A program made the translations under genes and the position numbers. The notes beneath the pieces were generated by a model that was not told the origin of the DNA, ran no database searches, and saw only the letters and a list, made by a program, of their open reading frames with translations. DNA of 64,000 nt. Origin: Acidisarcina sp. (GTDB lineage Bacteria > Acidobacteriota > Terriglobia > Terriglobales > Acidobacteriaceae). How positions within the stretch are numbered: the stretch's first letter is position 1; every line of letters begins with the position of its first letter. Positions 16,718-42,183 of the stretch are shown here, in pieces. The stretch lies in the NCBI GenBank assembly GCA_035539175.1, contig DATLIY010000006.1, positions 1-64,000 on the forward strand, in the 5' to 3' direction.

Positions 16718-18250
16718 TTACACCTTATGCCATCTGCGTCCATCGCGCGCCAGCAGTTGATCGGCTTCCTTCGGGCCCCAGGTACCGGCTGCGTAGTTGG
16801 GGAAGTCCGGTTTCTCGGCTGCCCACTTCTGCAGAATTGGCGTGTAGAGGGCCCACGTTGTCTCCACTCCGAGACGGTGCGCGAACAGCGTGGCATCTCC
16901 CAGCATGGCATCGAGCAGCAGACGCTCATATCCGTTCGCCGAGGATGTTCCGAAGGCTGCCGCATAGTTGAAGTCCATCACCACCGGGCACACAGACATG
17001 TCGGGGCTAGGCACCTTGGCTCCAAAGCGCAAGGAGATGCCCTCATCCGGCTGAATGCGTATGGTGATGAGGTTTGGCTGAAGCTCGTTGCAGTGTGCAT
17101 TGGGCCCGAGGTGGAAGAGTAATTGTGGCGGTTGCTTGAATTGCACGGAGATCTCGGTGTAGCGCTTGGCCAGCCGCTTGCCGGCGCGGAGATAGAACGG
17201 AACTCCGGCCCACCGCCAGTTATCCAGTTCCAGGCGGAGCGCGGCAAAGGTCTCGGTGTTCGATTCAGGATTCACGCGGTCTTCCTGGCGATAGCCCTTT
17301 ACCGTCTCATCGCCCTCCTTACCTGGACCATACTGGCCACGCACGGCGTTGGAGATCGGAATCGGTAGAATGGCCCTCCAGACCTTCAGCTTTTCCGTGC
17401 GCACGGACTCCGCCTCAAACGAGATGGGCGGCTCCATGGCGATGAAGGACAAGAGTTCCATGACGTGGTTCTGAACCACGTCGCGCAGCGCTCCGGCTTT
17501 CTCGTAGAACGGCCCGCGGCCTTCGATGCCGATGCTTTCCGCTGCCGTGATCTGGACATGGTCGATATAGTTACGGTTCCAGATGGGCTCGAAGACGCCA
17601 TTCGCGAAGCGGAAGACGAGGATGTTCTGGACCGTCTCCTTGCCGAGGTAGTGATCGATCCGGAAGACCTGCGCCTCGTCGAAGATGGCGTTGACTTCGT
17701 CATTCAGCTTGCGGGCGGATTCCAGATCGTGGCCGAAGGGCTTTTCAATGATGATGCGGACCGTGCCTTTCTCCGGCTTTGCCATTCCCTGGTCGCCAAG
17801 GTGCCCGGTGATGTCGGAGAAATGCTCGGGAGCGGTTGCCAGATAGAAGAGCCGGTTGCCTTGCGTGCCCTTCTCCTGGTCGATCTTCTCCAGCATAGAC
17901 TTCAGATTGGCATACCCTGCAACGTCGTCGAAGTTCAGCGCGTGATAGGTGAGCTTGGCCAGAAAGGCATCCAGCTTTGGATCGTCCTGAGCTACGCCGC
18001 CAAATTCCGCGATGCCTTCGCGCATCTCCTTGACGAAGACATCCTCCAGCGAGCGCCGCGCAACGCCGACCATGGCGAACTCTTTCGGCAGCAGTCCAGC
18101 CTGCTCCAGATGAAAGAGCGCCGGCAGCAGCTTGCGCTTCGTCAGGTCGCCCGAGGCACCAAAGATGACCACGATACCCGGCTCAGGAATACGCTCTTTG
18201 CCGTGGGACGCGCTCTCAAGATCTTCAGGAGAAATTTTTATAGTTGCCAT
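16718..18250 (-). CDS. zwf: Glucose-6-phosphate 1-dehydrogenase
   Basis: 510 residues, full length. Oxidises glucose 6-phosphate to the lactone, reducing NADP. Dinucleotide loop FGASGDLTKRKLLPAL (30-45), EKPFGHD (169-175), and active-site RIDHYLGKE (197-205) are intact. C-terminal domain contains the usual WAGVPFYLRAGK. Neighbours pgl and glk supply the step before and after. No gnd or edd gene is present in the window. Confidence 0.97.
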   Translation of the reverse strand: MATIKISPEDLESASHGKERIPEPGIVVIFGASGDLTKRKLLPALFHLEQAGLLPKEFAMVGVARRSLEDVFVKEMREGIAEFGGVAQDDPKLDAFLAKLTYHALNFDDVAGYANLKSMLEKIDQEKGTQGNRLFYLATAPEHFSDITGHLGDQGMAKPEKGTVRIIIEKPFGHDLESARKLNDEVNAIFDEAQVFRIDHYLGKETVQNILVFRFANGVFEPIWNRNYIDHVQITAAESIGIEGRGPFYEKAGALRDVVQNHVMELLSFIAMEPPISFEAESVRTEKLKVWRAILPIPISNAVRGQYGPGKEGDETVKGYRQEDRVNPESNTETFAALRLELDNWRWAGVPFYLRAGKRLAKRYTEISVQFKQPPQLLFHLGPNAHCNELQPNLITIRIQPDEGISLRFGAKVPSPDMSVCPVVMDFNYAAAFGTSSANGYERLLLDAMLGDATLFAHRLGVETTWALYTPILQKWAAEKPDFPNYAAGTWGPKEADQLLARDGRRWHKV

Positions 18251-35918: not shown

Positions 35919-36250
35919 TGGTCACCATGATACCTGCGATTCGTAAATGCCCACAAACTGGGTGAACCCACCCTCTCGCCCGACCAGAATTACCGCAACA
36001 CCGTGCGGCTGGGGAGATAGCGTTTCTGGGCCTGTTACGTCTGTATTAAAATAGGAAAAGATCTGCTCCTTACAGATTCGCCGGAATTTCTGCGACTCCG
36101 TTATGAGGCGCACATCTAATGTTACAGGGTTGCAACATCCCCGTGGGCTGGGCGCTCTCCGTTTCAGCGCAGCGAATCCACTGCAGCCTTGCATTTGCTT
36201 TCAACATCCCCGTCCTGCGGCAGATTTGAGCGGGACTGAAGGCGGGTATT
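35919..36250. other. 332-bp divergent intergenic region between tatB and nadA
   Basis: No credible gene. It must hold both promoters. An AT-rich GTATTAAAATAGG lies near 36045-36056. I see no NiaR/NrtR-like palindrome, and no clear riboswitch. Confidence 0.4.
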
Positions 36251-37396: not shown

Positions 37397-37822
37397 GTGA
37401 AGATTTTTACGCTGGAAGAGGCGCAGGCGGTGTTGCCGGTGGTGGAGTCGCTGCTGGAGCGCGCCATGGAGGCTCACCGCGCCGCCCTGGAAATTGAAGG
37501 GGAACTGCAGCAATTGAGCCAGCGGATCTTTCTCGCCGGTGGCATGCACATCGATGTTCGCGCCGTGAACCGCCAGCGCCTGGCGCATGAGGAGCAAACG
37601 CAACGCGCCAGGGAGATCGTCTCCGAGATCGATTCGATTGGAGTGGAGGTCAAGGATCTCGAACACGGGCTGCTGGATTTCCCCTGCAAGCTGGAGAATG
37701 AAGTAGTGCTGCTCTGCTGGAAACAAGGGGAGCAGCGCATCACGCATTGGCATACCGTGAGCGATGGATTCCGCGGCAGAAAGCTCATCGACGAACGTTT
37801 TCAGCGCACCAAACCCAACTAA
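37397..37822 (+). CDS. DUF2203 protein
   Basis: 141 residues starting GTG, three bases after nadA, so translated from the same message. MKIFTLEEAQAVLPVVESLLERA and later QRITHWHTVSDGFRGRKLIDE is the DUF2203 pattern; long helical middle. Family function unknown; why it trails nadA is not clear. Confidence 0.82.
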   Translation: MKIFTLEEAQAVLPVVESLLERAMEAHRAALEIEGELQQLSQRIFLAGGMHIDVRAVNRQRLAHEEQTQRAREIVSEIDSIGVEVKDLEHGLLDFPCKLENEVVLLCWKQGEQRITHWHTVSDGFRGRKLIDERFQRTKPN

Positions 37823-37876: not shown

Positions 37877-37905
37877 TTGACGAACGATAATAATTATCGT
37901 TTAAT
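37877..37905 (+). promoter_or_regulatory. PerR/Fur-type operator inside the regulator's own promoter
   Basis: -35 TTGACG (37877-37882), spacer of exactly 17 bp, -10 TTTAAT (37900-37905). A perfect 19-bp palindrome AACGATAATAATTATCGTT (37883-37901) fills the spacer and reaches into the -10. Its core (ATAAT-A-ATTAT) matches the known PerR/Fur box pattern. Confidence 0.8.
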
Positions 37906-37912
37906 AGATCTT

Positions 37913-38344
37913 GTGAACAGTGCCGCTGCAATCCGTTTCCGGGAATTATGTGCCGAACATGGCCTGACGGCGACGCATCAGCGGCAGATTTTGTTCGAAG
38001 TTTTACAGGGTATGACCGGGCACCCAAGCCCGGAGCAGGTCTATGCGAAGGTAAAGCGGCGCATCCCGTCTGTTTCTCTTGCAACCGTTTATAAGAACAT
38101 TCATCTCTTCATTGAGAGTGGTATGTTTCGCGAGGTCAGCCCCCACCACGGCTCTTTGCGGGTGGAGGTCAACAGCCGTCCTCATCATCACCTGGTCTGT
38201 ACCGGCTGCAGGTCCATCTCCGATATTGACGAAGAGGAGCTGGGGCTGCCGCAAAAACCGAAGTTGCTCTCCAGTGGTTTCCTAGTAGAACGCTATGCGG
38301 TCGATGTGCTGGGCCGCTGCCCGGCGTGTCAGGAGAAGTCCTGA
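37913..38344 (+). CDS. perR: Fur/PerR-family metal-dependent repressor
   Basis: 143 residues from GTG 37913. Winged-helix N-terminus with LTATHQRQILFEVLQ, HPSPEQVYAKVKRRIPSVSLATVYKNI, then the metal-rich linker RPHHHLVCTGC, and a second Cys pair (CPACQ) that completes a structural Zn(Cys)4 site. Representative PerR residues (His-His-His plus Asp) are there, but PerR, Fur, and Zur cannot be firmly separated by eye. ahpC and ahpD follow on the same strand, which favours a peroxide role. The GTG falls about 7 bases beyond the -10, so the message appears leaderless; an earlier TTG would coincide with the -35. Confidence 0.87.
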   Translation: MNSAAAIRFRELCAEHGLTATHQRQILFEVLQGMTGHPSPEQVYAKVKRRIPSVSLATVYKNIHLFIESGMFREVSPHHGSLRVEVNSRPHHHLVCTGCRSISDIDEEELGLPQKPKLLSSGFLVERYAVDVLGRCPACQEKS

Positions 38345-38431
38345 TTCCCGAGTCACAACATGCGCAGTGCCTGCCGGGGCAGAAGCAAAGCAGCACTGCC
38401 ATATTCAATTTAAGAAGAAGAGGAGTTACAC

Positions 38432-38968
38432 ATGCTTGGAATTGGCGAGAAGTTTCCTAACTTTGAAGTAACCGCAACCGTCAGCCGCACCAAGGGTAAG
38501 GAGTTCGAGACGATCACCAGCGAGTCGTACCCGGGAAAGTGGAAGCTCTACTTTTTCTGGCCCAAGGATTTCACGTTCGTGTGCCCTACGGAGATCGCCG
38601 GTTTCGGCAAGTTGAACAGCGAGTTCGCGGCGCGCGACGCGCAGATTCTGGGCGGCAGCATCGACTCCGAGTATGTTCACCTGGCGTGGCGTAATAACCA
38701 CGAAGACCTGAAGGAACTGCCCTTCCCCATGCTGTCCGATCTGAAGCGCGAGATCACCGAACAGCTCGGCATTCTTGACCCCAAGTCCGGCGTGGCGCAG
38801 CGTGCCACCTTCCTGGTCGATCCCGACGGTATTATCCGTTTTGTCTATGTCACCGAAGGTTCTGTCGGCCGCAACCCCTCCGAAGTTCTGCGCGTCCTCG
38901 ATGCGTTGCAGACCGATGAACTGTGCCCCTGCAACTGGCACAAGGGTGAAGAGACGATCCACGTTTAA
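38432..38968 (+). CDS. ahpC: Alkyl hydroperoxide reductase peroxidase subunit
   Basis: 178 residues, 2-Cys peroxiredoxin. Peroxidatic Cys in FVCPTE (C51), resolving Cys in the ELCPCNW near the C-terminus (C165 or C167). Reduces hydroperoxides in the cytoplasm; electrons likely come through AhpD, encoded next. AGGAG ribosome site just upstream. Downstream of the PerR-like gene by 87 bp with no obvious second operator, so probably read through from the perR promoter or from a weak one I cannot identify. Confidence 0.95.
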   Translation: MLGIGEKFPNFEVTATVSRTKGKEFETITSESYPGKWKLYFFWPKDFTFVCPTEIAGFGKLNSEFAARDAQILGGSIDSEYVHLAWRNNHEDLKELPFPMLSDLKREITEQLGILDPKSGVAQRATFLVDPDGIIRFVYVTEGSVGRNPSEVLRVLDALQTDELCPCNWHKGEETIHV

Positions 38969-39052: not shown

Positions 39053-39613
39053 ATGTCGTTAGATTCTCAGTCGTTGGATCCATTGATCGACAGCCTTCCG
39101 GATTACGCGAAGGATCTGAAGCTGAACTACTCGAGTCTGGTACGCCAGAACTCGGAACTGACTCCGCAGCAACTATGGGGAACCGTTCTGTCCTGTGCCA
39201 TGGCGACGCGCAGCGATGCGCTCACCAAGGCGGCGACAGAAGCGGCCCGTGCGCAGCTTTCGGAGCAGGCGCTGACCGCTGCCCAGACCGCAGCCGCGCT
39301 CATGGGCATGAACAACATCTTCTACCGCTTTCAGCACCTCGCTTCGAATGAGAAGTACAGCACGATGCCAGCCCGCTTGCGCATGAACGGCATCCGTACG
39401 CACGGAGTGGAGAGCCAGGATTTCGAGTTGTGGTGCCTGGCTGTCTCCGCCATCAATGGCTGCGGCAAGTGCATCGATTCCCACGAGAAGGTTGTGCGCG
39501 AGAAGGGCGTAACTGAGGAGACCGTGATGGCAGTGGTACGCGTCGCGTCCGTGGTGCACGCCATCGGAGCCGTGCTCGATGCCGAGCGTGTGACCGACAA
39601 GTCCCCGGTGTAG
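39053..39613 (+). CDS. ahpD: Alkylhydroperoxidase AhpD
   Basis: 186 residues of the AhpD/carboxymuconolactone-decarboxylase fold. NGCGKCIDSHE carries the redox CxxC (C137, C140) with conserved His144, and an upstream Glu (E126 region) as the proton-relay residue. In mycobacteria AhpD links AhpC to dihydrolipoamide; the same role is inferred. Ends with a strong terminator. Confidence 0.95.
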   Translation: MSLDSQSLDPLIDSLPDYAKDLKLNYSSLVRQNSELTPQQLWGTVLSCAMATRSDALTKAATEAARAQLSEQALTAAQTAAALMGMNNIFYRFQHLASNEKYSTMPARLRMNGIRTHGVESQDFELWCLAVSAINGCGKCIDSHEKVVREKGVTEETVMAVVRVASVVHAIGAVLDAERVTDKSPV

Positions 39614-40950: not shown

Positions 40951-40989
40951 TCCGTTGCAGTATAGATTCTAGAGGTGGACAGGAAATAT

Positions 40990-42183
40990 ATGCTTCCTAA
41001 CGGGATGGTTGCGGGCCGTGCGATGCGGGGCCTTGCCGGGCTGGCTCTTGCAGCAGCGCTGCTGCTCTCCGGCTGCGGAAAGTTCTTCGTGCCGGAGATC
41101 AACACTCCAGGAGGCACAGGAGGGAGCGGAGGCGGAGGCGGGACGACCAGCACCACGGCATTCCTCTATGTCGCCAACGCTGCCACCGGCGGCCAGAACA
41201 CGAATCCGGCGATTGCCGGTTTTTCCACTCCGGGCAGCACGCTGGCTGTGCTGCCGCAGAGTCCCTATGCTGTCGGCTGTCTGCCCAGCGCACTGGCGAT
41301 TACGCCGGGCAACAAGTTCCTGTACGTGGGTTGCAGCGATGGGCCGATCTTTGTCTACACAGTCAACAGCGATGGATCGCTGACGGGGAATAGCGGGGCT
41401 CCTGTGGCTACAGCCGTCGCACCGGTAGCAATGAAGGTAGATGCCACCGGCAATTGGCTGCTGGCGGCTGTCAATTCGTTCTCGGGGATCTCGTCGCTGG
41501 CTATTTTCCAGATCAACTCCAGCACCGGGGCGCTTACGGCGGCCAGCAGTTCTCCAGTCACGCTGGACACCGGTTCGCCAAACCATATTGCCATCACCCC
41601 CAACAATCAGATTGTTTACGTCTCTCTCGGCACCGGGGGGGTGGATATCCTCAGCTTCAACTCCAACTCAGGTGCGGCGGCTGTAAGTGGATTGCTGAAG
41701 CCCAAGGATTCGCGCGGCGCAGATACGGCGCTCGCGGTGAATCCGGCGGGTACCTATCTCTACGTGGGCGAAACAGTGGGCAGCGGCCTGCGAGTGTTGA
41801 AGATCGCGACCGATGGAGCCTTGACCGAGATATCTGGTTCGCCCTTCCAGACTGGCCTGGGGCCCTCCGCGGTGGTGGTCGATAGCGCCGGGGCGAACGT
41901 CTACGTAACGAACCGCAGCGACAACACGATCAGCGGATTTGCTGTCGCGGCCTCGGGCGCCTTGACGGCACTTGCAGGCTCTCCGTATGCCACAGGAAGC
42001 ACCCCGGTCGATATGGCGATCGACAGCACGAAAGGGTACCTTGCGGTGGTCTGCTCCGGTGGATCGCCGGACCTGCAGTTATTCAATTTCGACCAGACGA
42101 CAGCAGGCAAACTGAATGCGGTCGCCCACGCGACTACGGGCACGGATCCTACGACGCCTCTCGCCATCGTTGCCAGTCATTAG
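40990..42183 (+). CDS. Beta-propeller (YVTN/lactonase-like) lipoprotein
   Basis: 397 residues from the ATG at 40990 (AGGA 6 bases upstream); a GTG at 40975 is less likely. Signal peptide with lipobox LLLSGC, then a Gly/Thr-rich linker. Repeated blocks of about 50 residues such as FLYVANA, FLYVGCS, YLYVGET, and VYVTNRSDNTISGFAV mark a seven-bladed propeller like 6-phosphogluconolactonase (YkgB) or YVTN families. Surface-anchored; function unknown. Enzymatic lactonase activity is not implied. Confidence 0.88.
   Translation: MLPNGMVAGRAMRGLAGLALAAALLLSGCGKFFVPEINTPGGTGGSGGGGGTTSTTAFLYVANAATGGQNTNPAIAGFSTPGSTLAVLPQSPYAVGCLPSALAITPGNKFLYVGCSDGPIFVYTVNSDGSLTGNSGAPVATAVAPVAMKVDATGNWLLAAVNSFSGISSLAIFQINSSTGALTAASSSPVTLDTGSPNHIAITPNNQIVYVSLGTGGVDILSFNSNSGAAAVSGLLKPKDSRGADTALAVNPAGTYLYVGETVGSGLRVLKIATDGALTEISGSPFQTGLGPSAVVVDSAGANVYVTNRSDNTISGFAVAASGALTALAGSPYATGSTPVDMAIDSTKGYLAVVCSGGSPDLQLFNFDQTTAGKLNAVAHATTGTDPTTPLAIVASH

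Follow-up and report, generated by a model that had tools for sequence, protein, structure and literature searches.

The perR-like locus and its promoter

The window, by which we mean the whole 64-kb stretch of DNA that was analyzed, encodes on its forward strand a 143-amino-acid PerR-like regulator of the Fur family (perR, positions 37913 to 38344), followed on the same strand by ahpC (38432 to 38968) and ahpD (39053 to 39613), the second and third genes of a putative operon. The regulator matches the Fur superfamily model PF01475 with an E value of 3e-24 (85.9 bits, above the curated cut-off of 23.1), and its nearest solved structure is Bacillus subtilis PerR (2fe3, E value 8.9e-19). The ahpC product matches the peroxiredoxin model PF00578 (E value 5.7e-36) and scores 141 bits against the NCBIfam AhpC model, below the cut-off of 272, while the ahpD product matches the alkylhydroperoxidase model TIGR00777 with 210.6 bits (cut-off 191.95). 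Upstream of perR on the same strand lie nadA and then a DUF2203 gene, which ends at 37822, 90 nt before the perR GTG codon, and a terminator scan listed nothing between the DUF2203 gene and perR. Two tandem nadA (NAD+) riboswitches are found directly 5' of nadA (36128 to 36188 and 36197 to 36243, forward strand), above the Rfam gathering score, and these were the only Rfam elements found between 36000 and 41000. Beyond ahpD, an open reading frame at 40975 to 42183 resembles, by eye, a beta-propeller protein of the relatives described below.

The promoter in front of perR was read directly from the sequence and is exactly as an earlier reading from the sequence alone (the sequence-only reading) had described it, with a -35 hexamer TTGACG (37877 to 37882, forward strand), a 17-nt spacer (37883 to 37899), and a -10 hexamer TTTAAT (37900 to 37905, forward strand), the last also identified by comparison with relatives. 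The same reading had the spacer filled by a perfect 19-bp palindrome, and AACGATAATAATTATCGTT (37883 to 37901, strandless), a putative PerR operator, does span it entirely, with the refinement that it extends over the first two bases of the -10 hexamer. Its arms (37883 to 37891 and 37893 to 37901) are 100% complementary with 1 nt between them, and its center is a Fur-type core, GATAAT-N-ATTATC. The -10 hexamer has no A at its second base, and a generic promoter scan that requires A at this position therefore did not include TTGACG/TTTAAT among the sites listed for the window; it returned instead two overlapping candidates, one per strand, each with 9/12 matches.

A perfect palindrome of this form is not rare in itself. 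The window contains two perfect 9-1-9 palindromes, compared to a mean of 0.42 in 60 dinucleotide shuffles, and 21 of these 60 shuffles also held at least one, so symmetry alone is weak proof of an operator. The other perfect palindrome in the window, at 17463 to 17481, is G+C-rich and unlike a Fur box. When AACGATAATAATTATCGTT was searched for with up to 3 mismatches, we found one match in the window, none in 100 shuffles, and a single place in the window's own genome (3.9 Mb in 13 contigs). The main evidence that makes chance unlikely is the conservation of the promoter-operator-start layout in many relatives.

The GTG start codon (37913 to 37915, forward strand) lies 7 nt past the -10 hexamer, in line with the distance claimed earlier, and G37913 would be the most likely first transcribed base, given the usual spacing and because it is the only purine in 37911 to 37914. 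Taking a leaderless gene to have its -10 hexamer about 6 to 9 nt before the start and to lack a Shine-Dalgarno sequence, we find here a gap of 7 nt and a predicted anti-Shine-Dalgarno duplex of 0.4 kcal/mol for perR, compared to -7.9 kcal/mol for ahpC, which is preceded by a Shine-Dalgarno-like GAGGAG (38420 to 38425, forward strand). No RNA structure signal was seen at the perR 5' end (z = -0.04) or between perR and ahpC (z = -1.02). In a 464-kb sample of the window's own genome, where simple gene calling gave 165 starts with free upstream sequence, the motif TANNNT occurred 5 to 8 nt before starts 17 times, compared to 5.8 expected, and leaderless-type starts are thus probably present elsewhere in this genome. 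The one paper that we found on leaderless genes in Acidobacteria, a prediction study, predicts them in 3/3 genomes of the phylum, with a mean of 13.3% (PMC3160421).

In B. subtilis PerR numbering, the window protein has H37, E85, H91, H93, D104, K61, and the four zinc cysteines. Compared to the PerR ligand set of His37, Asp85, His91, His93, and Asp104, four residues are identical and residue 85 is Glu; the Arg61 plus Glu104 signature of the iron regulator Fur is replaced by Lys61 and Asp104. Across 70 aligned loci (window included, sampled as described below), H37, H91, H93, D104, and the four cysteines of the structural zinc site are invariant (70/70), while position 85 is Glu in 49/70 and Asp in 21/70, and position 61 is Lys in 61/70, including the window, and Asn in 9/70. 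Asp104 is described as a mark of H2O2-sensitive PerR, and Asn61 versus Arg61 as separating PerR-box from Fur-box reading in B. subtilis (PMC8638851). Residues and box together suggest a PerR-like sensor with a Fur-like reader. The earlier label of a perR-type gene therefore holds in part: four of the five PerR ligands, including Asp104, and the downstream ahpC-ahpD genes speak for it, but Lys61, Glu85, and the NCBIfam PerR models, none of which reaches its cut-off (best score, 85.9 bits against 180), do not. A comparison of residue 61 with the box gave no usable signal of covariation, since five of the nine Asn61 loci have the box merged into a TATACT or TATAAT -10 hexamer. A second Fur-family protein of the genome, encoded on contig C7, has Arg61 and Glu104 by eye. 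The C7 protein (L072, from position 1381) is read as 188 amino acids with a long N terminus, and its true start may be further in.

Conservation of promoter, operator, and start among relatives

A family search matched 140 of 200 genomes at E values of 1e-10 or lower, many of them distant (about 30% identical). Of the 80 matches that scored 112 bits or more, 70 were read, the window among them, and those in G138, G199, G084, G046, G160, G151, G018, G131, G092, and G122 were left out. The named relatives are all Acidobacteriaceae (Terriglobus, Edaphobacter, Granulicella, and Paracidobacterium), and the sample also includes metagenome-assembled genomes; a phylum-wide search found 17 of 297 genomes at E values of 1e-30 or lower, all from the same family. 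Promoters were scored with an E. coli-like sigma-70 matrix, which is approximate here, and were called clear when the gap to the start was at most 13 nt and at most 5 of 100 shuffles scored as well, thresholds that were chosen after the score table had been seen. For start codons, the rule preferred ATG to GTG and GTG to TTG and took the codon closest to the domain. The box score is the number of matches to the 12-position core GATAAT-N-ATTATC, with at least 10/12 called a box.

The sequence-only reading had looked to related genomes for a check on the promoter, and there the promoter-operator-start layout is kept in many loci. A clear sigma-70 promoter with the -10 hexamer ending 6 to 12 nt before the start was found in 33/70 loci, with a spacer of 17 nt in 30 and 18 nt in 3, and the -35 hexamer is TTGACN or TTTACA in all 30 with the 17-nt spacer. 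The box is present in 21 of these 33, so that the operator overlaps its own promoter and is conserved with it, and in 18 of the 21 the core begins 3 nt after the -35 hexamer, where the palindrome starts with the spacer. Over the 19 positions, the arms pair to 81% in the 21 promoters that carry the box, compared to 33% in the 9 promoters with a 17-nt spacer that score below 10/12.

The layout is not universal, and by the E. coli matrix 37/70 loci have no clear short-gap promoter. In one katG-linked group, the box covers the -10 hexamer and continues downstream of it, and the gap is 18 nt, so that a short leader is likely. In four Edaphobacter-like loci (L009, L012, L018, and L022), other sites score best with the matrix, but inspection by eye shows a TATACT or TAGACT hexamer that precedes the start by 6 to 7 nt and a box that lies upstream of this -10 hexamer or extends to it; the loci of the named relatives are similar. 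In a simpler test on 43 loci of at least 58% identity, 31 had a -10-like hexamer 5 to 9 nt before the start; five control bands, placed between 17 and 41 nt, gave 3 to 7 loci each, and the band at 12 to 16 nt, where the AT-rich box lies, gave 27. The second base of the -10 hexamer is A in 0/21 clear promoters with the box versus 4/7 without it, which raises the possibility of a trade-off between operator and -10 sequence.

Shine-Dalgarno sequences, called as an anti-Shine-Dalgarno duplex of -4.4 kcal/mol or lower within 20 nt before the start, divide the two genes. In clear loci where both could be paired (n = 22), perR has one in 0/22 and ahpC in 22/22, and over all loci the counts are 4/70 for perR and 43/43 for ahpC. 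Together with the short distance from the -10 hexamer to the start in 33/70 loci, this is consistent with the earlier proposal of a message that starts at or next to the codon.

The box and its link to peroxide-defense genes

A peroxide-defense gene (ahpC, katG, catalase, or ferritin-like, each class confirmed by a Pfam check on one example) is located downstream of perR in 58/70 loci. The box is present in 49 of these 58 linked loci and in 2 of the 12 unlinked ones (Fisher P = 1.1e-5; P = 2e-5 and 0.006 at box thresholds of 9 and 11); the unlinked set was defined by hand first and later confirmed by tblastn. The exceptions are two unlinked loci that keep the box (L052 and L053) and nine linked loci that fall below 10/12. 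A tree test pointed in the same direction with only 2 supported independent pairs (sign test not significant), and since the loci are related, the association rests on few independent events.

Seven loci are box-less (6 to 7 of 12 matches), with a beta-propeller protein following perR in five and an ECF-like sigma factor in two, and in all seven the -10 hexamer still ends 6 to 10 nt before the start. In L013, L015, L028, L029, L032, L033, and L044, ahpC is unlinked and the beta-propeller protein often follows perR (PF10282, L044 copy). A search of 22 genomes for ahpC (E value of 1e-50 or lower) found it in 6, namely in four of the seven box-less genomes and in G155 and G063. The G063 gene adjoins a perR copy, while in G155 a ferritin-like gene follows perR and no box precedes the distant ahpC. 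In the other four genomes, G165 (L077) and G031, G094, and G179 (L078 to L080; close relatives of each other), the relocated ahpC is preceded by TTGCTG-17-TT[T/C]AAT with a box-like spacer, as judged by eye, about 90 to 120 nt before the ATG; against the strict core, these boxes score 8 to 9 of 12. Of the 12 unlinked loci, 10 score below 10/12 for the box, and four genomes have a similar promoter in front of the relocated ahpC, while the seven box-less loci retain the short distance from -10 hexamer to start; for these reasons, the comparison suggests that operator and leaderless start are separable in evolution.

Genome-wide, the core was found with at most 1 mismatch in at least one place in 17 of 20 genomes searched. 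Exact cores away from perR occur in G088, G127, G147, and the box-less G179; the copies at C1:7379 in G127 and C21:104917 in G147 hint at further targets in those genomes. The window's own genome (3.9 Mb) has the core at two places at this stringency, so we rejected a large regulon there. The second place, GATAAGGATTATC at C8:38928 to 38940 (L075), comes just after an AT-rich TATACTTATA stretch and lies between sulfatase-like and glycosyltransferase-like genes, by eye, with no evident link to peroxide genes.

Proposed control of the operon, alternatives, and known systems

Promoter, operator position, start codon, lack of a Shine-Dalgarno sequence, conservation, ligand residues, and linkage to peroxide genes are each supported by sequence and comparison, and on this basis we consider it probable that perR-ahpC-ahpD is a leaderless, autorepressed operon released by H2O2. 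The sigma-70 promoter TTGACG-17-TTTAAT would direct transcription from GTG 37913 or within a few bases of it, and we infer both this start and a single transcript, on which perR would have neither leader nor Shine-Dalgarno sequence and ahpC would be translated from its own Shine-Dalgarno sequence. A metal-loaded dimer of the PerR-like protein, bound to the spacer-filling 19-bp palindrome, would keep RNA polymerase off the three genes. We further infer that H2O2 would oxidize the metal-binding histidines, as reported for the histidine ligands of PerR (PMC3953959), and that the repressor would then leave the palindrome, so that peroxiredoxin, alkylhydroperoxidase, and fresh repressor could be made until peroxide falls. 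Autorepression, which the sequence-only reading had offered as its own deduction, is likely because the operator is conserved, single in its genome, and associated with peroxide-defense genes.

Three other readings were weighed against this one. The operator could be read mainly by the Fur-like paralog of contig C7, in which case the operon would answer iron and not its own product. The box is of Fur type (GATAAT-N-ATTATC), the window protein does not have the Asn61 typical of PerR, the C7 protein is over the Pfam cut-off, and some relatives have several near matches to the core at up to 1 mismatch (10 in G127, 6 in G088, and 6 in G070). We nevertheless judge this reading unlikely: a global Fur would be expected to have more than two core places in 3.9 Mb, no box precedes the Fur-like gene itself (best score, 8/12), and in G017, G070, and G035 the site at perR is the sole exact core in the genome. 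About as improbable is a perR message that comes mostly from read-through of nadA-DUF2203, which would be leadered in practice and leave the box in control of only part of it. The two upstream genes on the same strand, the 90-nt interval, and the empty terminator scan would allow this, but upstream neighbors differ among relatives while promoter and start persist, and perR has no Shine-Dalgarno sequence to serve a leadered message.

Least credible of all is a start of perR translation at TTG 37877, with a longer message that begins upstream. This codon coincides with the -35 hexamer, as had been pointed out, and the frame is open from it to GTG 37913; among the 33 clear loci, 12 do have an in-frame start upstream, including an in-frame TTG at the -35 hexamer 36 nt upstream in six (window included) and 39 nt upstream in four. 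Yet TTG 37877 is accounted for by the -35 motif itself, and the remaining 21/33 have no in-frame ATG, GTG, or TTG upstream of the end of the -10 hexamer, which makes TTG a very unlikely start. In the sister locus L003 (89% identical), the GTG at the equivalent place is the sole start available in frame, several loci have a stop just before the start, and the distances from palindrome to domain are not all in frame with one another (75, 77, 78, 80, and 81, for example). On the sister locus and the wider relatives, we rejected TTG 37877 in favor of GTG, the codon that the sequence-only reading had preferred.

If the autorepressed operon described above exists, it would provide a concrete, testable peroxide switch for the Acidobacteriaceae, which are common in soil, and a compact model of leaderless translation beyond the Actinobacteria. 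The loci also offer a natural set for a change in Fur-family DNA preference (Lys61 with Asp104), and the possible trade-off between operator and -10 hexamer is a simple detail to test. A more speculative idea, to which we give little credence, is that one message combines by design a repressor cistron that is leaderless with enzyme cistrons that have Shine-Dalgarno sequences; the operator would travel with the enzyme, turning up in front of ahpC where that gene has moved away, and the regulator would keep the leaderless start. The ratio of repressor to enzyme would then depend on leaderless initiation, independently of transcription, and its shift under stress would act as a built-in translational brake on the peroxide response.

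Literature searches on leaderless Fur-type genes, autorepressed regulators, and PerR in this group returned nothing on an acidobacterial PerR among the matches listed. Like B. subtilis PerR (2fe3), the window protein belongs to the Fur family and has H37, H91, H93, D104, and the Zn(Cys)4 site, but it differs in having Glu for Asp85 and Lys for Asn61. The PerR box of B. subtilis is TTATAAT-N-ATTATAA, unlike the Fur-type box found here. In Leptospira LIMLP_18590, too, the sensing residue is Asp and the reading helix carries a basic residue, Arg there and Lys here (PMC8638851). Self-control of PerR has been reported in Campylobacter (PMC4330884) and proposed in Leptospira (PMC8638851), and autorepression is therefore ordinary for a PerR.

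Two close parallels come from Actinobacteria. Mycobacterial furA, located beside katG, is autoregulated via a 23-bp AT-rich box (Sala 2003 and Milano 2001, cited in PMC2443159 and PMC4218801) that overlaps the -35/-10 region of its own promoter, 9 to 16 nt before the start codon (PMC2443159), and FurA binding is lost with H2O2 (PMC2443159, PMC4218801); a related inverted repeat is an operator near the M. smegmatis ahpC promoter (PMC4218801). As here, a Fur-family regulator sits beside a peroxide-removing enzyme with the box in its own promoter, but in mycobacteria the box is TCTTGACT-N-ATTCCAGA, the phylum is another, and the enzyme gene is katG rather than ahpC-ahpD. Transcription starts of M. 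fortuitum furAII leave 28 to 40 nt, in contrast to the leaderless reading proposed here, and for M. smegmatis furA, coordinate +1 is placed one base before the start codon and called arbitrary (PMC2358910). Streptomyces coelicolor furA is documented as leaderless (Hahn 2000, via Table 1 of PMC3160421), and furA-catC resembles the present locus in having a Fur-family regulator on a leaderless message in an operon with a catalase-peroxidase, going by the title of that reference, while phylum and downstream enzyme are different. Thus, with mycobacterial furA-katG and the leaderless Streptomyces furA, the design is already known, and what is added here is the phylum, the palindrome that fills the spacer exactly, and the pairing of Lys61 with Asp104.
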